A program made the position numbers and the translations under genes. This document shows positions 1 through 8,759 of a DNA stretch of 64,000 bases, piece after piece. Each line of letters opens with the position of its first letter. The stretch's first letter is position 1. Location: assembly GCF_037949285.1 (NCBI RefSeq), contig NZ_CP149926.1, positions 661,501-725,500 of the forward strand, written 5' to 3'. The notes under the pieces are model-generated. The model worked only from the letters and a program-made list of their open reading frames with translations. It was not told where the DNA came from and searched no databases. This DNA is from Thioclava sp. GXIMD4216 (lineage in GTDB: Bacteria > Pseudomonadota > Alphaproteobacteria > Rhodobacterales > Rhodobacteraceae).

Positions 1-1089
1 ATGCTACTCATGATCGGGTATTTGACCACCCCCACGACGTCCACTGGTGTCTCTCTGAGCGAATTTTGGGCGTGGGTAAGATACCTATCGGCAATCACGC
101 CGGATCCGGACCTCAGGCTCACTGGCAGCTTCTCCGAACTTGATGCCCACCAGAAGACAATCTTGAGCGACGATTTTGGTATGGGGGCTCCCCTCCTATG
201 GTTGAGCGAACGCTTTGACTTGGATCGTATTGTGGATGGTCGATATTTCGTCGAATACTTGGCACCGAGATTGGGGGCTACACAACGAAGAACGGCCAAG
301 CGCGGCCCGAATAAAACTCCAGATTTTGTGGCCCGGGATGTAAGTGGTGTATGGCATGTTATCGAGTGTAAAGGAACGCAATCAGGCTCGGAATACAGCG
401 CCCGACAGTTGGGGCATGTAGGCCCTCCGCCAACTGGAGGTGTTGCGCAAAAACGTTCTATCGTCTTCCCCTCCGGATACAGCGGACAGCGCCTAGTCAG
501 TGGACTTCAGATTGGTGTCCCTCACGGAGAGCCTAGCCGCCTCACCATCATCGACCCGGAAGCAGAGAAGCCATTTCAGATCTTAGAGACTGAGATGGCG
601 ATGGCGGATGACGCGGCAACCAGATGTGTCGTTTCAAAATCCTTGCGGCAAGCGGGCTATGAAGTCGCGGCAGAGGCGATTTCCATGCCGTATGATGATG
701 TTTTCTTTATGGAACGCCGCGCAACCGCAGGGCTCTCGGATGATGAGGGCACAGCTGGCCTACGCGATGAACGCGCCCGAGAAGAGTTGGGGAGTCGAGA
801 GCGGACTGTCCAGTTCGCAGAAAAATATGTCGGGCGTGAAAGGCAGTTTATGCTGCCGAGACCCGTGTTCGTTAATGATAAGCCCGTCTATCGCGTGATC
901 TTGAGGCAAGGGATGCATAAGGAGGCCCTCGACGAAATGCAGTCGGATCCGAGCATAGTGGGCCCTTTGTCAGCATCCAGCGCCGATTGGGTGGCTGGTC
1001 TAGGGAAGAGTGTAAGCAAAGGCAGAGAAGGCTTCGCATCAATGACGATTGGTAACATTTTTCGTTCAGAGATAATTCTGGAAGAATAG
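1..1089 (+). CDS. PD-(D/E)XK nuclease-like protein, possibly 5'-truncated
   Basis: The reading frame is open from the first base of the window, so the 362-residue protein may begin further upstream. The clear motif is a PD-(D/E)XK nuclease core: Pro107-Asp108 followed by Glu122-Cys-Lys124 (seen as PDF, then HVIECKG), with a predicted strand around each. This fold is shared by restriction endonucleases, Holliday-junction resolvases and many defence nucleases, and it needs the Asp, Glu and Lys to bind metal. I do not recognise the flanking regions, residues 1-100 and 150-362, and see no methyltransferase or specificity partner in the window. The gene lies in an accessory region with a tyrosine recombinase and a SIR2-HerA module, which suggests a DNA-targeting defence or mobile-element role. 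That role is inference; the nuclease motif is what is seen. Confidence 0.6.
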   Translation: MLLMIGYLTTPTTSTGVSLSEFWAWVRYLSAITPDPDLRLTGSFSELDAHQKTILSDDFGMGAPLLWLSERFDLDRIVDGRYFVEYLAPRLGATQRRTAKRGPNKTPDFVARDVSGVWHVIECKGTQSGSEYSARQLGHVGPPPTGGVAQKRSIVFPSGYSGQRLVSGLQIGVPHGEPSRLTIIDPEAEKPFQILETEMAMADDAATRCVVSKSLRQAGYEVAAEAISMPYDDVFFMERRATAGLSDDEGTAGLRDERAREELGSRERTVQFAEKYVGRERQFMLPRPVFVNDKPVYRVILRQGMHKEALDEMQSDPSIVGPLSASSADWVAGLGKSVSKGREGFASMTIGNIFRSEIILEE

Positions 1090-1433
1090 CTGATTGGGTC
1101 GATGCTTTGAAGACCTGGCTGGCAAATGCGTTGCTTGGCGGTCCGAACCCATAGGTGGGTCTGCAAAGGCCGGGATGGCACGGAAACCCGCCTTTGGTGT
1201 TGGCGTTTAGCGTCTTGCGTGGATGTTGCAGAAGGGCCGCCGACGGCCCTAGCCGTGCCTCGCCTTGAATGCGGCACTGAGGAATACATCCAAAGGAATC
1301 CGCTTTCCTCATTTCGACGAAAATGCGAGCGTCACCACAACGCTCGAGCCACTCTTTACACTTCGTGTGTTTTGTTAAGAGTTGATCAAGGCCAACCCTT
1401 GCTCGGCAGAGACTTGTGAGAGGCACCAGAACC
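1090..1433. other. intergenic gap with a hairpin, no gene recognised
   Basis: No convincing coding frame is seen here; the open frames lack a ribosome binding site and resemble nothing known to me. A perfect 7-bp stem (AGGGCCG/CGGCCCT) occupies 1233-1250 with a 4-base loop but has no T-run after it. A shorter inverted repeat (GAGCG/CGCTC) lies near 1329-1346. The gap separates the nuclease-like gene from the recombinase gene. Confidence 0.4.
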
Positions 1434-2021
1434 ATGCCCACCCGGCGAAGTGTCAAGAGTGACGATGACCGCGCGACCCATGCCCATATCCGGAGCCGGG
1501 ACTACCTTGGTCAGCCGGATATTGACCGGCTTCTCGCTGCCGCCAAGAAGAGCCGCCACGGGGTTCGCGATCGCCTCTTGATCCTGATGATGTTCCGGCA
1601 CGGCCTGCGCGTCTCCGAAGTGATCGCGCTTCGACGGCGAGATGTGGATCTCGCGCAGTCGCGGATCTGGATCACACGGCTGAAGAACGGGCTCAGTGTC
1701 GAGCAGCCAGTCGCTGGCGACGAGCTGCGGGCTATCAAGCGCTGGCTCGCGCGCAGGGACGATGCACTGCCCTGGCTCTTCGTCTCCGAGCGTAAGCTGC
1801 CGCTCACACGGCAGGCCGTGAACTACATTGTCGGGACCGCCGGCACCCGTGCCGGACTCGAGCGCGTCCATCCACATATGCTACGCCATTCCTGCGGTTT
1901 CGCGCTAGCCAACAAGGGCCGCGATCTGCGAGTCATTCAGGACTACCTCGGCCACCGAGATCCCCGACACACAGCGCATTACACGCGGACGGCGGCGCAC
2001 CGGTTCGACGACCTCTGGTAG
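1434..2021 (+). CDS. small single-domain tyrosine recombinase (FimB/phage-integrase type)
   Basis: This 195-residue protein is a site-specific recombinase that would cut and rejoin DNA through a covalent phosphotyrosine. With the ATG at 1434 as residue 1, the catalytic set is complete: Arg59 in HGLRVSE, Lys84, His148 and Arg151 in HPHMLRH, His174 in YLGH and the nucleophile Tyr183 in AHYT. The protein lacks the N-terminal SAM-like core-binding domain of full-length integrases, so it resembles the short FimB/FimE-type recombinases that invert small DNA segments. An in-frame GTG at 1416 is an alternative start; the ATG has GAGAGG about 10 bases upstream. It is the only recombinase in the accessory region. 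It may have mobilised the island, or act on a local invertible element that I could not find. Confidence 0.85.
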   Translation: MPTRRSVKSDDDRATHAHIRSRDYLGQPDIDRLLAAAKKSRHGVRDRLLILMMFRHGLRVSEVIALRRRDVDLAQSRIWITRLKNGLSVEQPVAGDELRAIKRWLARRDDALPWLFVSERKLPLTRQAVNYIVGTAGTRAGLERVHPHMLRHSCGFALANKGRDLRVIQDYLGHRDPRHTAHYTRTAAHRFDDLW

Positions 2022-2393
2022 CCGGAAGCTGCAGTGCCTGAGAAGAGGAGGAAGGGCGGAGAGCCGACCTTCGCCGCAGGCTAGCAAGAAACATCTAGCC
2101 ACGGAGAAAGCCGACCTTCGTAGTAGACCAGAACGACGGCATGCCTCTGTACAGCCTTACATAAGAACGAAGAGGTTCTGCTGGCGATCGCCCCCTTACG
2201 CTTAAGCGGTTTCAACAGCGAACCGCATTACCCTTCGTGATTGCAATTCTTAGCGGAATAGCTGCTATGGAATGCGGATGAAGCGAGTGCGAAATCAGGC
2301 TAGGGTTGCGCCAGCGCCTGCTGCAAACGGCAGAAACCGGAAATCACAATCGAAATATATTTCTTCTTATAAAATCACAGTGGTGTGGAGAAC
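2022..2393. other. intergenic gap with a short direct repeat
   Basis: No gene is recognised in this gap. A 12-base direct repeat, AGCCGACCTTCG, occurs at 2062-2073 and 2109-2120. The last 40 bases before the next gene are AT-rich and presumably hold its promoter. Confidence 0.4.
2062..2120. repeat. pair of 12-base direct repeats
   Basis: AGCCGACCTTCG is found at 2062-2073 and again at 2109-2120, just downstream of the recombinase gene. A related inverted version, GAATGTCGGCTT, lies at 7826-7837. These look like decayed copies of a dispersed intergenic element; no function is visible. Confidence 0.45.
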
Positions 2394-3464
2394 ATGAGCT
2401 TGAAAACGATCGGAATAATAGATCCTGATAGACTTCAGAACATTCCAAAAAAGCACTGGGCAGAGCACGAGTTTTGCTTTCACCTGCATGACCTTATGGC
2501 GCGACTGCTTGTGCAAATGGAAATTCAAAAAGCAGGACATATTCAGTTTGAGATCGAGTCCGAAGCTGATCGCCATCTGTTGGCTAGCGGAATTAACATT
2601 TTGGATTTTCTTGATAAATCCGGACGCGGGGACTTAGAACGGCGGGCGGCAGTAAATCACGTCTGCAATGCGCTATTTTCAGACATGCTCCACTTCATCT
2701 ATGAAGCTCTACGGGCATTGGAAAAGCGAAAATTCACTGTCGCTTTTTCGCTCCTACGCAAGCCCCTGAAAGAAGGCATGTTGATCGTTGCTCAAATGTG
2801 CGCGGACGAGGGGGCATTCTTTGATAAGCTGAAATCTGACGCAAAGAACCTGCTCAACCGGAAAGACTTGGATGAAGCAGGTATTAAAGCCTTACTAGCC
2901 TCGGCGATGAAAGAGAGCCAAGGGTGTAGCTTCACAAATGCTGATGCAGTGTATGATACACTTTTCAACTTTCAAAATGACCTTGGCTTTGCAGGCCTTT
3001 TTGATAAGGCAACACATCTGGTGACGGAGTTTAGAAGAAACCAGACGGAAGATTACAATCTGAATTTCATCTTCAAAAATCCCATGGATGACGACATCTA
3101 TGCCGGTGGGACATATAGCCAACTCGCAATGTTAATGCTCTTTCTCCATGTCATGCAGATTGAACTGTATGGTCGAATGAGAAAGCCCAGCAAGAAATAT
3201 CAGAATTGGATGCTGTTCACATCGCTAGGCTCATATGAAGCGCTCTTTACGAGGGGGCGCTCCCGACTGACTAATTTTGTGAACTCGAACTTCGCCGAGC
3301 TTATGCGGTGTCCGGTGTGCGAAGCGCGGATTCGTATTAAAAAAGTAGATGCTCCGCGTCTATTTATCGGAGAACGCCTAAACTGCGACCAATGCTTCAC
3401 CGACCAACATTTTCCCTTTGGTTGGCTACTCAATCAATTCGATTTAGACCTTTTCAATGAGTAA
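2394..3464 (+). CDS. uncharacterised helical protein with C-terminal zinc ribbon
   Basis: I do not recognise this 356-residue protein. The ATG at 2394 is preferred over an in-frame GTG at 2385 because GTGGAG then serves as a ribosome binding site 3-8 bases upstream. Most of the chain looks alpha-helical and soluble, with a conserved-looking stretch around residues 105-130 (charged helix ending in LLRKPLKE). The C-terminus has a four-cysteine zinc ribbon, Cys306-X2-Cys309-X21-Cys331-X2-Cys334. Such ribbons usually bind nucleic acid or stabilise a small domain. The gene stands alone in its orientation, in AT-richer sequence than the chromosome core. A defence role is suggested only by the company of the SIR2-HerA genes 1.5 kb downstream. 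Confidence 0.6.
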   Translation: MSLKTIGIIDPDRLQNIPKKHWAEHEFCFHLHDLMARLLVQMEIQKAGHIQFEIESEADRHLLASGINILDFLDKSGRGDLERRAAVNHVCNALFSDMLHFIYEALRALEKRKFTVAFSLLRKPLKEGMLIVAQMCADEGAFFDKLKSDAKNLLNRKDLDEAGIKALLASAMKESQGCSFTNADAVYDTLFNFQNDLGFAGLFDKATHLVTEFRRNQTEDYNLNFIFKNPMDDDIYAGGTYSQLAMLMLFLHVMQIELYGRMRKPSKKYQNWMLFTSLGSYEALFTRGRSRLTNFVNSNFAELMRCPVCEARIRIKKVDAPRLFIGERLNCDQCFTDQHFPFGWLLNQFDLDLFNE

Positions 3465-3711
3465 GATGCCCACGTTTGCGTCGCGTTTTTTGCACATGGA
3501 ACAGCATCTGGAACTCTGAACTTAGAGCAGGCACTAGCCGCGCCTTCAACGGGTGTTATGTCGCCTACTGCGGGCCCTCATTATCTAAACTTTCGGCGTG
3601 ATGTCACGAATGGCGGCTTCGGAGAAGCCGCGCTGCAGCAGAACAGAACCTGGCGAATGACCGCAGAGGGTCGTCACACTAGGTACAACCAGTTGGACAG
3701 GTGATTTCTGG
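3465..3711. other. convergent intergenic gap with hairpin
   Basis: This gap lies between two convergent unknown genes. It contains a perfect 8-bp stem (GCGGCTTC/GAAGCCGC, 3613-3631, 3-base loop) and the motif GCGAATGACCG at 3653-3663, which recurs with one change at 7871-7881. There is no T-run, so the hairpin is not a typical intrinsic terminator. Confidence 0.4.
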
Positions 3712-4416
3712 CTAGTGTGGTGATTTGCAGAAAGCCACGAAGCGATGACCAGCTGCCGTCAATCGGTCGCCAAGGAGGTCGAGCCCTTGCGAGGCTGTCA
3801 TCGTATGGAATATTGACTTGTCTGTGTTGAGGAAGCCAAGCTGGTAAAGGTCTCCGAATGCACCTTTGATCGACTCAATGCCCACGCCTGGAAGGGCAAC
3901 TGGCATGAAAGAAGACAAGCCTCCGCGGAGCTGCCCTTCGGGTATTTCATACGCGAACAAATATGTCTTCGGATCAGATAAAAAAGCCAAGATTCTCAAA
4001 TGCAATGCAGACAGCCTTTCAACCAAGTTGAGGTAATATTCCCGTTCATCCGAACTGACCTTCGATCCAACCGCCGAGTTTATCAGAATACCTCGGAACG
4101 CCTGCAACTTCTCCATTTGGTAATTTTCTGCCGCTCCGCGGAAACATCTCTCCAAAACGAAAGCAAACTCATCTGTCCGAATTGTTTTTTCGTCTATGCG
4201 GTTTTCAAGCGCTTGCAGGTCGCACGCAATTCCTTGGACGAAGTCTTTTAGGCGCTTTTCCTTCATAGATGGGATGTAGTCTGTCATTAGAGATGCGATG
4301 CCTCCACCGAACGGCGCCGTCGACAGAGCGGCTTTGACGATGTGAAGAAGGTGCTCCCTTGGCCTCATCTGGCTGTCAATTTCTTGGATAGGTGAGTGCT
4401 GCTCTTTGTCGTTCAT
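3712..4416 (-). CDS. uncharacterised helical protein with glycine-rich hydrophobic segment
   Basis: This 234-residue protein is not one I can name. Residues 25-50 contain a hydrophobic glycine-rich stretch (TAPFGGGIASLMTDYIP) followed by a basic patch, then long helices rich in Leu and charged residues through about residue 150 (LENRIDEK, ENYQMEKLQAF). The C-terminal 70 residues look like a small mixed domain. Proteins with this layout, a short hydrophobic loop next to EKRL and then a helical bundle, are common as orphan genes in variable regions. A membrane-associated effector is possible, but nothing shows it directly. It is transcribed away from the SIR2 gene, 498 bases distant, so the two are divergent. 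No signal peptide is visible. Confidence 0.55.
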   Translation of the reverse strand: MNDKEQHSPIQEIDSQMRPREHLLHIVKAALSTAPFGGGIASLMTDYIPSMKEKRLKDFVQGIACDLQALENRIDEKTIRTDEFAFVLERCFRGAAENYQMEKLQAFRGILINSAVGSKVSSDEREYYLNLVERLSALHLRILAFLSDPKTYLFAYEIPEGQLRGGLSSFMPVALPGVGIESIKGAFGDLYQLGFLNTDKSIFHTMTASQGLDLLGDRLTAAGHRFVAFCKSPH

Positions 4417-4914
4417 GTGCTCTACCTTCTTTTGGCTGCCCCAAGTAATCTAGCGCAAAGCTCAGCATCTCCGGAACAAACTATTTCTTACGCAATCTAA
4501 GATAGGTCGATCCTAGGTCGCTGCAGTGCGGCTCTCAATTGTGCTCTCAACGGCCGCTTTGGGCCGGGTGCATTGGTCATCTCGTCGTCGTTGCGAGGGG
4601 CGGGAAGTTGCCGTTCGCTGCTCTTGCAAACTTGATCGCGACTCTAAACCCAAGGGACTTCGGTGACCGGATGTCTCCACATTCTTGCTGCACAAGGTTG
4701 CGGCGAGTGCTAGCTTCGAGAAAAACATAGGAAATCTCGATTTGAGCAGTGAGATCGCAAGCCAGGGCAGCCTTTTTACTTCCGACTTTTTGACCGATTC
4801 CATTCAGGACGTTTCGGAGTGGAACACGCTTGGCGATGCTGATCCTGAAAAGTTTGGTGACAGCATTCGCTGCCATTCTGACAGCTTCCCAAACCGCGAC
4901 GCGGAGATCAAGTT
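4417..4914. other. divergent gap upstream of SIR2-HerA, no gene assigned
   Basis: Almost 500 bases separate two divergent genes. I see no recognisable gene. A short frame, 4685-4918, ends in an ATGA overlap with the SIR2 start, but it has no convincing ribosome binding site or familiar sequence. A GGCC-GCTTTG-GGCC hairpin lies at 4551-4564. The promoter of sir2-herA should be here, but I cannot point to clear -35 and -10 boxes. Confidence 0.35.
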
Positions 4915-5952
4915 ATGAGTGTAGAAGAGAAGGTCGTTGAAAGGATTGCAACCGTAGCCCAAAGTTGCATCCAGCGACATCCGGTCCTCATTTTGGGAAG
5001 TGGGGCATCGGTCGTTCACGGTCTAAGAGGCATGGGTGAGTTGGCCCAGTATCTTCGAGATCACATGCAACCTGACGAAGGCGAGGAGACCGATGCTTGG
5101 CTGCTAGTTAGAACGGCTTTGGCGAAAGGTGATGGCCTTGAGGAAGCTCTGTTAAAAACTGCTGCACCGCTCAGTCTCGTCGAGAAGATTGTAGCACTTA
5201 CCTGGCAAGCCATTGCAGAGGATGACCTTGCCTTGATGGCGAGGGCAGCACGAGGGCAGGAGCATTTTAGCCTGTCTGACTTGCTTCAAGGAATGTTTAA
5301 GACCACTCACATGGTCACAAATATTGTGACACCAAATTATGACCGTGTGGCTGAGTATGCGACTGACATAGCGGGGTACATTCACGTTACAGGTTTTGCG
5401 CCAGGGATCATTCGAAGCCGTGAGGGCAGCGATCTAGTGTCAATTCGACGTGGAGCGCATGCGGCAAGGACGGTCAGAATCTGGAAGGTTCATGGTTCGC
5501 TCGATTGGTTCGTGGATAACACCGGTCGCGTCGTATCCTTGCCGATTCCAGAACGGTTACCAGAGGATTTTAGTCCGCTAATCGTGACACCAGGTGTCAG
5601 CAAGTATGAGCGAACGCATGACGAACCTTTTCGGTCTGCCATCCAAGGAGCAGACAGAGCGTTGGATCAAGCGGCTTCCTTTCTCTGTGTCGGCTACGGC
5701 TTTCGTGATCGGCACATTCAGCCGAAAATCGTCGATAGGTGCAGGCAACGGAATGTTCCAATCGTGATATTGGCGCGCACACTCACAGATGAAGCTAAAC
5801 GGTTCCTCGCCGATAGCGCAGGGCAAGCATATATGGCGCTTGAGAAGGACGGCGAAGCAACTCGTGTGTTTCTACCAGAGCATCCCGAAGGAATGAGCAT
5901 CCCTCTGCCCGATCTCTGGTCGTTCGATAATTTTAATAAGATGGCTTTGTGA
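4915..5952 (+). CDS. SIR2-family NADase subunit of a SIR2-HerA defence system
   Basis: This 345-residue protein has the SIR2-like Rossmann fold used by phage-defence proteins to hydrolyse NAD+. Visible motifs are the nucleotide-binding GSGAS (residues 28-32), TPNYDR (139-144, with Asn141), KVHGS (191-195, with the likely catalytic His193) and GYGFRDRHI (260-268). No second domain such as a TPR or Argonaute-like part is fused to it. The HerA gene starts 8 bases after its stop, so the two are co-transcribed. In characterised SIR2-HerA systems the two proteins form a large complex, and infection triggers NAD+ loss or nucleic-acid cleavage. Family and pairing are strongly supported by sequence; anti-phage activity in this host is inference. 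Confidence 0.9.
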   Translation: MSVEEKVVERIATVAQSCIQRHPVLILGSGASVVHGLRGMGELAQYLRDHMQPDEGEETDAWLLVRTALAKGDGLEEALLKTAAPLSLVEKIVALTWQAIAEDDLALMARAARGQEHFSLSDLLQGMFKTTHMVTNIVTPNYDRVAEYATDIAGYIHVTGFAPGIIRSREGSDLVSIRRGAHAARTVRIWKVHGSLDWFVDNTGRVVSLPIPERLPEDFSPLIVTPGVSKYERTHDEPFRSAIQGADRALDQAASFLCVGYGFRDRHIQPKIVDRCRQRNVPIVILARTLTDEAKRFLADSAGQAYMALEKDGEATRVFLPEHPEGMSIPLPDLWSFDNFNKMAL

Positions 5953-5960
5953 GGTTTTAG

Positions 5961-7712
5961 ATGGCAATTTTTGACTACGATGATGGTGAAGCGTTAGGGA
6001 AGATTATAGCCGTTGATACGGCAGTAGTCGTTGTGAGAGTTGATGAACTTGAGCGCCTAAAGCGAGTGCAGGTCAATCGACTGGTCGCACTTCAGAGCAG
6101 TAAGGCAGGGCAACATTTGGTTGGTGTTGTTTCACGGATCACACGTAGAGCGCCCGAAGTTACGCCAGACGAGTCGGAGGCTGATCCAGATGAAGTCACT
6201 GAGTTGCCAGAGAATAACTTGGTGCGAGTTTCGTTGATTGGCACTTTGATCGACAAACAGGGTATGCTCAAAAATATTTTCAGAAGAACACTTGAAACCG
6301 TACCTGAAATTGATGCCAATTGCTTTGCTCTTGAAGGCAAGCGTCTGACAGACTTCATGCAAGTAATCTCGAACGTAACAGGTGACGGCCCGCAGTTAGA
6401 GCTTGGAAAATATACCCTTGATGAAAATGCCACCGCGTTTCTCAACGGGAACAGGCTATTTCAGCGCCATGCGGTGATTGTAGGCAGCACCGGTTCAGGT
6501 AAATCATATACGACAGCGCGTATGTTAGACCAAGTTGCCGCTTTAGATCAGGCCAACGCCATCTTGTTCGATATACACGGTGAATATAAGACGCTTGACG
6601 GTGAAGAGTTTCGACATTTGCGCGTAGCTGGCCCAGGTGATTTGGAGCACGATCAAGGGCTTGATGATGGCGTCCTCTATCTACCATATTGGCTTCTCGG
6701 TTATGAAGCTATGGTTTCGCTATTTGTTGATCGCTCTGATCAAAACGCCCCAAACCAAGCAATGGTCATGGCCAACAGCATTACCGATGCAAAGCGTAAG
6801 TATCTTCAGGACGGTAAACATGCAGAGGTTTTGGCGAATTTTACCGTTGATAGCCCTGTACCATTTCCACTTCAGGCTGTGCTTGAACGTCTAAGTTTTC
6901 TCGATACTGAACGCGTCCCCGGCGCGAAGGCCAACACTGACAAAGCGGGCGACTTCAACGGAAAGTTAAGTCGTTTGATTGCCCGCTTTGAGGCTAAGCA
7001 CATGGATCGCCGCTTAGGTTTTCTTTTTCAGCCTCATTCGGAATGTATGGAAATGGACTGGTTGCCAAGGTTGGCGCACGCGCTGACAGCAAGCAGAGGG
7101 ACGCAACAAGACAAGAAAGGCGGCATAAAGATCATTGATTTCTCGGAAGTCCCATCCGACATACTGCCTTTGATGGTCAGCCTACTTGCGAGATTGGTTT
7201 TCAACATCACTCAGTGGACTCCAGTGGAGAAGCGCCACCCCATTGCCTTGTTTTGCGACGAGGCGCACCTTTATATTCCCGAGCGAGCGGGGCGTGATGG
7301 GGTCGATGACATATCCGTAGGCATCTTTGAACGTCTGGCCAAAGAAGGCCGGAAATATGGTGTTGGGCTCGTGGTCATTAGCCAGCGTCCTGCGGAGGTG
7401 AACAGGACAGTTCTAAGTCAGTGCAATAATGTGATCGCCATGCGCCTGACGAATGGCGACGATCAGAGTGTTGTCCGAAGGCTTTTGCCAGATAGCCTTG
7501 GCGGGTTTGGAGATCTGTTACCCGTTCTCGATGTTGGGGAAGCGTTGGTAGTTGGTGACGCGAGTCTTTTGCCGACCAGAGTTCGCGTAGGAGAGCCGAG
7601 ATACAAACCAAACAGCGCAACCATCGACTTCTGGGATCGTTGGGCGGGTGAGACGCCGGAATCTGATATTACGGGGGCAGTGTTGTCTTGGAGGCGTCAA
7701 AGCGCGAGATAG
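5961..7712 (+). CDS. HerA-type DNA-translocase ATPase of a SIR2-HerA defence system
   Basis: This 583-residue protein is a HerA/FtsK-superfamily ATPase that would assemble as a hexameric ring around DNA. The N-terminal 100 or so residues form the small beta-barrel (HAS-barrel) region. Walker A is GSTGSGKS at 175-182, followed by an LFDIHGEY segment typical of HerA. Walker B ends in DEAH at 433-436, and a conserved sensor segment reads SQRPAEVNRTVLSQC. The start has AGGT overlapping the upstream SIR2 stop region (TGAGGTTTTAGATG), so translation is probably coupled. Genomic HerA partners NurA in archaea; here the partner is SIR2, which defines the defence arrangement. The length is normal for the family and no catalytic motif is missing. 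Confidence 0.9.
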   Translation: MAIFDYDDGEALGKIIAVDTAVVVVRVDELERLKRVQVNRLVALQSSKAGQHLVGVVSRITRRAPEVTPDESEADPDEVTELPENNLVRVSLIGTLIDKQGMLKNIFRRTLETVPEIDANCFALEGKRLTDFMQVISNVTGDGPQLELGKYTLDENATAFLNGNRLFQRHAVIVGSTGSGKSYTTARMLDQVAALDQANAILFDIHGEYKTLDGEEFRHLRVAGPGDLEHDQGLDDGVLYLPYWLLGYEAMVSLFVDRSDQNAPNQAMVMANSITDAKRKYLQDGKHAEVLANFTVDSPVPFPLQAVLERLSFLDTERVPGAKANTDKAGDFNGKLSRLIARFEAKHMDRRLGFLFQPHSECMEMDWLPRLAHALTASRGTQQDKKGGIKIIDFSEVPSDILPLMVSLLARLVFNITQWTPVEKRHPIALFCDEAHLYIPERAGRDGVDDISVGIFERLAKEGRKYGVGLVVISQRPAEVNRTVLSQCNNVIAMRLTNGDDQSVVRRLLPDSLGGFGDLLPVLDVGEALVVGDASLLPTRVRVGEPRYKPNSATIDFWDRWAGETPESDITGAVLSWRRQSAR

Positions 7713-7973
7713 TGACGCGAGGAATGCGTGCATAGATCAAGACTTATGCACACCCGCACTGCGTTAGCGTTTTCAATCGCTTCGAGCGTGCAAAATTCAC
7801 GGTCGGAATTTTGTTTGCAACGCATGAATGTCGGCTTGGCAGGCTGCAACAACAGCAAGTTGGCTGGTCGGCGAATGTCCGGTTAGGGCCGTCGGCTTCA
7901 GGTAGTAGGAGGCAGGAGGGAGCTGCGCGGTTTGTCCGCTCCAGTAGGTTCTCCGTCCATCTGGAGAAGCCGG
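7713..7973. other. island edge: gap with hairpin and decayed motifs
   Basis: After the HerA stop there is a perfect 7-bp inverted repeat (GTGCATA/TATGCAC, 7728-7734 and 7745-7751) with no T-run. GAATGTCGGCTT at 7826-7837 and GCGAATGTCCG at 7871-7881 resemble motifs in the other gaps of the accessory region. Base composition and codon use become core-like in the next gene, so the right edge of the island probably falls here. Confidence 0.4.
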
Positions 7974-8513
7974 TCAGAGCGCTAGTTGCGCAGAGACAAA
8001 ATCAGCGCGTGATGCGATGTCGGTGCACGGCAGTTCCGTGATCTCATATCCGAGCGCGGTGTAGGTCTCCCGCATGACGGCGCAGGTCGCTTCGGCCTCG
8101 GTGCGGGTCTGCGTGCGTTCGGTGTCCTGTGTGAAGATCTCGTCCCAGTAGGGCGTCAGGAAGACGCGGGCGTTGTAACGGACTGCCTTGGCCGTAGCGG
8201 CGACGTGGGGCGCCACGGGGAGGCCGCAGAGGGTCAGGTAGCCCATTATGTCGGGAATGCCCCGGTCGAAGATCACGGGGCCTGAGAGTGCCTGTGCGTC
8301 CTCGTAGGCGCGGAGGTCGCGCTCAAGCATCCGTTCGGCATAGGCCATGCGGTCCGCCCAGGGGAGGGCGTCTCCGCCGCTCTGCATTTCCTCGCGAATG
8401 ACCGCGCGACCGGATTCGGGGATCGTATGAAAGCCGCGGCGGGAGAGCTCGGTGATCAGGCTGGTCTTGCCCGCACCAGGGCCGCCCGTCACGACGAAGA
8501 AATGGTCGCTCAT
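7974..8513 (-). CDS. AAA_28-type P-loop NTPase
   Basis: This is a 179-residue predicted ATPase or small-molecule kinase of the AAA_28 type. It starts with MSDHFF and carries Walker A GGPGAGKT at residues 10-17, then PESGRAVIREE and a FDRGIPD segment that resembles the acceptor region of nucleotide or sugar kinases. The ATG at 8513 is preceded by GAGGATGG. The protein is a single compact P-loop domain with no fused module. Members of this family are annotated only as predicted ATPases, and the substrate is unknown. It sits between the accessory region and the tRNA-Ala gene, and its GC-rich codon use matches the chromosome core, so I treat it as a core gene. Confidence 0.8.
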   Translation of the reverse strand: MSDHFFVVTGGPGAGKTSLITELSRRGFHTIPESGRAVIREEMQSGGDALPWADRMAYAERMLERDLRAYEDAQALSGPVIFDRGIPDIMGYLTLCGLPVAPHVAATAKAVRYNARVFLTPYWDEIFTQDTERTQTRTEAEATCAVMRETYTALGYEITELPCTDIASRADFVSAQLAL

Positions 8514-8683
8514 GGGCCATCCTCGGGTTTGACAGGGGAAGGGCTGCGCAGCGATCGACGCGCCGAAAGGTGCGGATCAAGGCAGCATGGATTTTCGTAG
8601 GGAAAACAGCACCGGTCTGCGCGGCAGAGGCAAATCCTCTGACAAGAAAGGCAGAACTATCTGGTGCTTTTCACAATGATATT

Positions 8684-8759
<76 letters not shown>

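Follow-up and report, generated by a model that had tools for sequence, protein, structure and literature searches.

A Thioclava SIR2-HerA gene pair that probably descends from a restriction-modification operon

In the window analysed here, a stretch of 64,000 nucleotides from Thioclava sp. GXIMD4216, two adjacent genes code for a SIR2-family protein and a HerA ATPase. An earlier note on this DNA took them for a complete SIR2-HerA (Nezha-type) anti-phage module, and suggested that a divergent gene and a long promoter gap upstream of them might add a local component to the standard two-gene system. The locus raises the question of what precedes the two genes, and whether they once belonged to a larger unit. 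Very probably, they are a SIR2-HerA pair of a distinct clade whose ancestors stood second and third in an operon with the order restriction-modification (R-M) gene, SIR2 and HerA, most of the R-M gene having since been lost by an in-frame deletion.

The SIR2-HerA pair and its genomic island

Both open reading frames were found intact and on the same strand, separated by 8 bases (5953-5960; Table 1), and they carry all the motifs that the earlier note had listed: GSGAS (residues 28-32), TPNYDR (139-144), KVHGS (191-195) and GYGFRDRHI (260-268) in SIR2, and the Walker A motif GSTGSGKS (175-182) and DEAH (433-436) in HerA. Residues N141 and H193 of SIR2, which line up with NYD and HGS of 8w9l, were unchanged in 13 of 13 aligned SIR2s, and K181 and D433/E434 of HerA, with both motifs, in 12 of 12 aligned HerAs. 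The PADLOC check proposed in the note gave matches over the whole length of both proteins (SIR2, model PDLC04087, E=1.4e-126; HerA, model PDLC04105, E=9e-239), so that the pairing is not a matter of chance, and its assignment to the established Nezha type of defence was borne out. Pfam families SIR2_2, for SIR2, and DUF87 and HerA_C, for HerA, scored above cut-off. The NCBIfam anti-phage equivalogs NF042942, NF042943 and NF042944 all recognised their targets at 23, 159 and 288 bits, far under the curated cut-offs of 500, 800 and 850; the window pair thus lies outside these equivalogs, which are narrow.

HerA came directly after SIR2 in 13 of 13 SIR2 relatives (one HerA being ended by a contig edge), and the window HerA was the one match in its own genome at E<=0.001. 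By itself, HerA proves little, since chromosomal relatives of about 28-33% identity had a SIR2 match beside them in none of 26 loci, with at most about 1.5 kb of flank covered per side. Matches to HerA were present in 5 of 50,697 phage records, the best aligning over 90% of the query with 31% identity, and in 4 loci (31-32% identity) of a viral-contig scan. The two identities that would have spoken against a defence pair were ruled out: archaeal HerA of the HerA-NurA type (4d2i) scored 86 bits, while the best chain reached 229, and the partner gene is SIR2; structure comparison placed the SIR2 fold closest to the sirtuins of solved SIR2-HerA complexes and not to metabolic sirtuins. The predicted structure of HerA was a poor model (mean pLDDT 54).

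Both proteins are identical in a second Thioclava genome. Comparison with a Rhodobacteraceae metagenome-assembled genome (MAG; L003) gave dN/dS values of 0.144 for SIR2 and 0.078 for HerA, which also span divergence preceding the deletion described below; the pair is under purifying selection. In the same comparison dS was uneven inside the operon (0.34 for SIR2, 0.13 for HerA), which suggests past recombination between both genes. Nezha systems are marked by a 12:6 complex of SIR2 and HerA that depletes NAD+ and defends against phages. By analogy, HerA would most likely be a hexameric ATPase scaffolding and activating SIR2, which would hydrolyse NAD+, and infection would lead the complex to deplete NAD+ so that phage growth stops; we infer a SIR2-HerA complex, NADase activity and phage defence at the window locus on that basis.

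In the same island, about 12-19 kb left of the pair, lie a Gabija system (GajA scoring 607 bits and GajB 628 bits) and a gene for a PDC-S06 protein. The island also contains genes of a Tn7-like element (L015:14101-18039 and L015:1032-2609), namely TniQ and TniB, with a TnsA-like match that is weak and below cut-off. By reading of the sequence, a transposase-like gene is apparently split into pieces about 14 kb apart, with a short shared overlap at the junction and with Gabija and PDC-S06 between them. A stretch of 811 bp that contains an AAA_28 NTPase gene ends at the 3' end of tRNA-Ala, and a copy of 85% identity lies across the defence cargo (L015:13129-13935; C1:654629-655435 in the window's own genome). 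Among 16 genomes from the genus, 5 have this stretch, in 1-3 copies that often lie 15-24 kb from one another; it may be a module bordering an island hotspot at tRNA-Ala. Positions 1-8750 of the window are 99.2-99.9% identical to Thioclava sp. SK-1 (L002), which has about 120 extra bases near position 4600; the match ends at or within the tRNA-Ala gene, and both are probably the same island beside different DNA. Three further island genes are given in Table 1.

Table 1. Features of the window and genes found downstream of relatives of the IIG-like gene
Locus	Feature	Coordinates	Strand	Basis or remark
Window	Island gene without known family, 362 aa	1-1089
Window	FimB-like tyrosine recombinase, 201 aa	1416-2021		91% identical copy in L134, also a genome of this genus
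Window	Island gene without known family, 359 aa	2385-3464
Window	Divergent gene	3712-4416	-	ORF; left of 498-base gap 4417-4914
Window	5' flank left from lost R-M gene; probably the operon's promoter and Shine-Dalgarno sequence	4614-4741	+	DNA match to L003
Window	58-codon scar ORF, TTG start, TGA stop	4742-4918	+	Match to both ends of L003 R-M gene
Window	SIR2-family predicted NADase, 345 aa	4915-5952	+	N141, H193 catalytic; PADLOC, Pfam
Window	HerA ATPase, 583 aa	5961-7712	+	Walker A K181, Walker B D433/E434; PADLOC, Pfam
Window	Stretch with AAA_28 NTPase gene	7873-8678
Window	tRNA-Ala	8684-8759
L146	HATPase-like protein downstream, 4-base overlap			Pfam just under cut-off
L163	HATPase-like protein downstream, similar to that of L146			By reading
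L148	PLD-like protein downstream			Just under cut-off
L149	PLD-like protein and TIR-TPR protein downstream
L158	ATPase-like gene and second gene downstream			By reading
L160	Two genes downstream without family assignment			By reading
L145, L147, L159, L161, L164	No close downstream gene

A restriction-modification scar and its counterparts in relatives

The divergent gene and the long gap are both present, but the gap is more than a promoter region: it holds the scar of an R-M gene. The divergent gene itself was rejected as a component of the system; among 160 loci it was found only in two (L002 and L018), both from Thioclava sp. SK-1, and its match to Abi_alpha reached 15.6 bits against a cut-off of 29. 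Positions 4614-4892 of the window matched positions 3721-4000 of L003 at 85% DNA identity, and the 3' part of the scar matched L003 positions 7984-8086 at 79%. The matched segments are both ends of an R-M gene (L003:3850-8004), and the approximately 4 kb between them are absent from the window. The first 50 residues of the scar ORF are 88% identical to the N-terminus of the 1384-aa R-M protein, the scar consisting of the 50 initial codons of a type IIG-like R-M gene fused in frame to its final codons. Its TGA overlaps the ATG of SIR2 (ATGA, 4915-4918), and the Shine-Dalgarno sequence AGGA, ending 9 bases before the TTG start, is retained. Since Thioclava sp. SK-1 has the same scar, it is not an artefact of a single assembly. 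No relative of the IIG-like gene was found in the window's own genome at E<=1e-100; where a three-gene operon would have an intact R-M gene directly upstream of SIR2, the window has the 58-codon scar only.

Uninterrupted versions of this gene lie directly upstream of SIR2, with a 4-base overlap, in L003 (SIR2 90% identical; 1,384 codons) and in Roseibium marinum (L005; 78-79%; 1,359 codons). In both, an Eco57I methylase scored above the Pfam cut-off of 25 bits (70 and 66 bits), and no nuclease domain was found apart from it. The best PADLOC model was DrmMI, which matched partially (277 and 282 bits), followed by REase_MTase_IIG (214 and 237 bits) and by further IIG models; in PLSDB, IIG-like relatives are annotated as restriction endonuclease or Eco57I R-M methylase. 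As judged from these profiles, the upstream gene is a type IIG-like R-M gene. Two other relatives carry it in broken form upstream of SIR2 and HerA genes with full-length matches. In a Leisingera thetidis plasmid (L068) a 149-aa ORF joins R-M residues 1-31 to residues 1265-1384 by an internal deletion that is in frame and has breakpoints unlike those of the window. In a Tabrizicola piscis plasmid (L086) an IS5 element splits the gene near codon 80; the remaining 1,280 codons end in a 4-base overlap with SIR2, and this copy was counted as broken.

Other R-M genes were found at the same position: an MmeI with all domains in L006 and L009, a C5-methylase plus endonuclease in L008, and an MvaI/BcnI endonuclease in L014, whose methylase lies outside the stretch covered and whose neighbour appears Vsr-like from reading of the sequence. 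The gene upstream overlaps SIR2 by 4 bases in L003, L005, L086 and L008, and lies 25-83 bases from it in L006, L009 and L014. Three related loci have no R-M gene: L007, L013 and L004, in which the pair follows a ribonucleotide reductase gene and an 82-aa leader ORF, also overlapping SIR2, showed no R-M similarity.

SIR2-HerA loci were gathered from genomes and plasmids (50 loci), and 42 of them were used for a tree of SIR2 plus HerA. The eight left out were duplicates (L112, L113 and L116, of L014, L008 and L069), a near-copy of L087 (L088), and loci that were short, truncated or without SIR2 (L114, L115, L119 and L091). The region upstream of L124 (366 bases) was counted as unreadable, and upstream genes of L086-L091 were taken partly from record annotation. 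All R-M-linked copies fell into a single clade of 12 loci (UFBoot 100): six with an uninterrupted R-M gene directly upstream, three with a broken IIG-like gene (window/L002 and L068 by deletion, L086 by IS5) and three with none, so that three of the five IIG-linked loci lack an intact R-M gene. In none of the 29 readable loci outside the clade does an R-M gene end 100 bases or less upstream of the pair. Four of these had another close upstream gene: in L073 a gene without family assignment within a DUF499/DUF1156 operon, in L080 a DrmD-like helicase, in L081 an SbcC-like ATPase and in L126 a Schlafen AlbA_2 protein. R-M genes farther away or otherwise oriented included a divergent methylase plus helicase in L071 and a downstream type III methylase in L080. 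Six loci outside the tree (L139-L144; L144 is the L117 locus) had no same-strand ORF of at least 80 aa ending within 100 bases upstream, L140 having only 261 bases there. Fisher tests of this linkage gave p of about 6e-7 (9/12 versus 0/29) and, counting uninterrupted genes only (6/12), 2e-4, values that are not true probabilities because the loci are related. Two distant pairs lie within larger operons: DUF499 / SIR2 / HerA / DUF1156 / SNF2 on a Klebsiella plasmid (L073), and DrmD-like helicase / SIR2 / HerA / type III methylase on a planctomycete plasmid (L080).

In the tree, L068 groups with the intact L005 (support 99) and L002 with L003 and L004 (support 90). Since L068 and L002 are on different branches and their breakpoints differ, the R-M gene was deleted twice independently, and the IS5 insertion is a third loss. 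That both deletions are in frame could be coincidence, the probability being about 1 in 9.

Loss of the R-M gene and probable autonomy of the pair

The ancestral operon would have had the order R-M / SIR2 / HerA, and in the window lineage an in-frame deletion would have taken most of the IIG-like gene. Because this deletion left in place the start codon with its ribosome-binding site, the frame, the stop codon and the 4 bases shared with SIR2, the operon leader could still bring translation into SIR2-HerA. That the pair is instead a decaying, inactive remnant of a broken operon is very unlikely: the first gene is gone and the neighbourhood has an apparently split transposase-like gene, but SIR2 and HerA are full-length ORFs that keep every catalytic residue, have dN/dS values of 0.08-0.14 and occur as identical proteins in the second Thioclava genome. 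SIR2-HerA stays intact and under purifying selection in lineages that together show three separate breaks of the R-M gene, and both deletions retain the start, frame, stop and overlap. This argues for an autonomous pair that does not require the R-M enzyme as an antitoxin. We infer that the pair works, or at least is kept, without its R-M partner, which may still modulate it.

The gene neighbourhoods of both partners bear on how far R-M and SIR2-HerA ever acted together. A search for relatives of the IIG-like gene matched 336 plasmid records, five of which were examined besides L086, and eight of 394 genomes of the family; from these genomes seven downstream stretches were examined, the eighth being a plasmid already examined. 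Neither SIR2 nor HerA was found in these 12 stretches (Table 1), in one of which (L162) the match to the IIG-like gene was weak over the part fetched. The IIG-like gene thus also takes varied downstream partners, as some of its relatives precede HATPase-like, PLD, TIR or other genes.

One explanation, for and against which the evidence is about evenly balanced, is that R-M and SIR2-HerA are independent systems sharing a promoter through island shuffling or operon convenience, so that R-M loss costs SIR2-HerA nothing. This would agree with the three disruptions (two deletions and one IS5) and three R-M-free members within the same clade, with the lack of a directly upstream R-M gene in all 29 readable relatives outside it, and with the several homologous IIG genes that have no close downstream partner. 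It accounts less well for a linkage gathered in one clade (9/12 with broken copies), for R-M genes that are always upstream and in the same direction, with the 4-nt overlap in 4 of 7 loci whose 3' gene is whole or IS-split, and for four R-M types substituting for each other upstream of SIR2-HerA. These last swaps upstream of a constant SIR2-HerA, together with exchanges of effector-like genes behind an unchanging IIG-like gene, would fit SIR2-HerA as a back-up effector that acts once the linked R-M enzyme is inhibited or overwhelmed, as the anticodon nuclease PrrC does with the PrrI R-M system, the window copy then being an orphan that is autonomous or heading to decay. Passages of PMC3506569 proposed immunity-suicide coupling, including PrrC-PrrI and Sir2 linked to Type I R-M, in 2012. 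We nevertheless regard this explanation as rather doubtful: were the R-M enzyme a needed inhibitor its loss would be lethal, yet all three IIG-broken loci keep conserved SIR2-HerA. Similarly tentative is the wider idea of a modular operon in which an exchangeable R-M gene comes first and an exchangeable abortive effector (SIR2-HerA, TIR, PLD or HATPase) behind it, often with a 4-base overlap, as a back-up when restriction fails, the R-M enzyme not being an obligate antitoxin.

Taken at the level of gene order, the SIR2-HerA of this clade appears as a module that lies behind exchangeable R-M genes and persists past their loss, in keeping with the preferred origin of the window pair from an R-M / SIR2 / HerA operon. 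The clade offers natural comparisons, with one SIR2-HerA beside four R-M types, one R-M type beside several downstream modules, and three independently R-M-broken derivatives. Such comparisons allow a direct test of whether the predicted NADase depends on its R-M partner, senses it or acts regardless of it.

Comparison with known systems

The closest known systems are Nezha/SIR2-HerA of E. coli, PsSIR2-HerA (8w9l/8wld) and that of Vibrio cholerae; the window SIR2 shares just 14-18% identity with theirs in structural alignments and is shorter (345 aa), and its clade has an R-M gene upstream, of which the window keeps the scar. According to passages of PMC11559045, mutations of the SIR2 active site abolish immunity in V. 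cholerae, deletion of herA raised plaquing of three named phages, and the classical island likewise carries Gabija and Nezha. A second known partner of HerA is DUF4297 (8XAU-8XAY; 8XAU as identified in part of PMC11291478), described in an excerpt of PMC12198126 as a Cap4-like nuclease, whereas the partner in the window is SIR2. The DUF4297-paired HerA 8xau scored 211 bits against the window HerA, above the SIR2-paired 8wiv (158) and E. coli 8j4u (105); a DUF4297 type was nevertheless dropped, as these PDB scores favour it but tblastn with the window HerA (195 bits for an E. coli SIR2-paired HerA, 192 for a DUF4297-paired one) does not separate the two.

Regarding R-M partners, the sections of PMC3506569 on linked suicide effectors, which put forward the coupling of immunity with suicide as a last-resort response in general form in 2012, share with the present clade an R-M gene and a putative NAD-depleting effector in one operon, with partners swapped. 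Sir2 is named there together with R-M of Types I and III, and Sir2 enzymes of HerA-FtsK systems appear only in passing. In Streptococcus thermophilus, a defence island has SIR2/HerA (Gao_19) either between R/M systems or downstream of them, as reported in part of PMC11514479; that is an island position, and an overlapping operon or in-frame R-M loss is absent from that part. The main text of a BREX survey (PMC12839542) lists nuclease back-up effectors, with no word starting in sir2, sirtuin or NADase, and a term search of the YprA/ARMADA preprint (PMC12458937) returned neither HerA nor Sir2. In searches of open-access literature, which leaves aside most subscription journals, no description of an overlapping R-M/SIR2/HerA operon or of its in-frame loss was found. 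SIR2-HerA, R-M genes near SIR2/HerA and the coupling idea are thus already known, and what appears new is the overlapping R-M/SIR2/HerA operon and its in-frame R-M loss. Unlike the cases in the sections of PMC3506569 cited above, the clade described here combines IIG-like, MmeI and classical type II enzymes with SIR2-HerA as a pair, and has secondarily lost the R-M gene.
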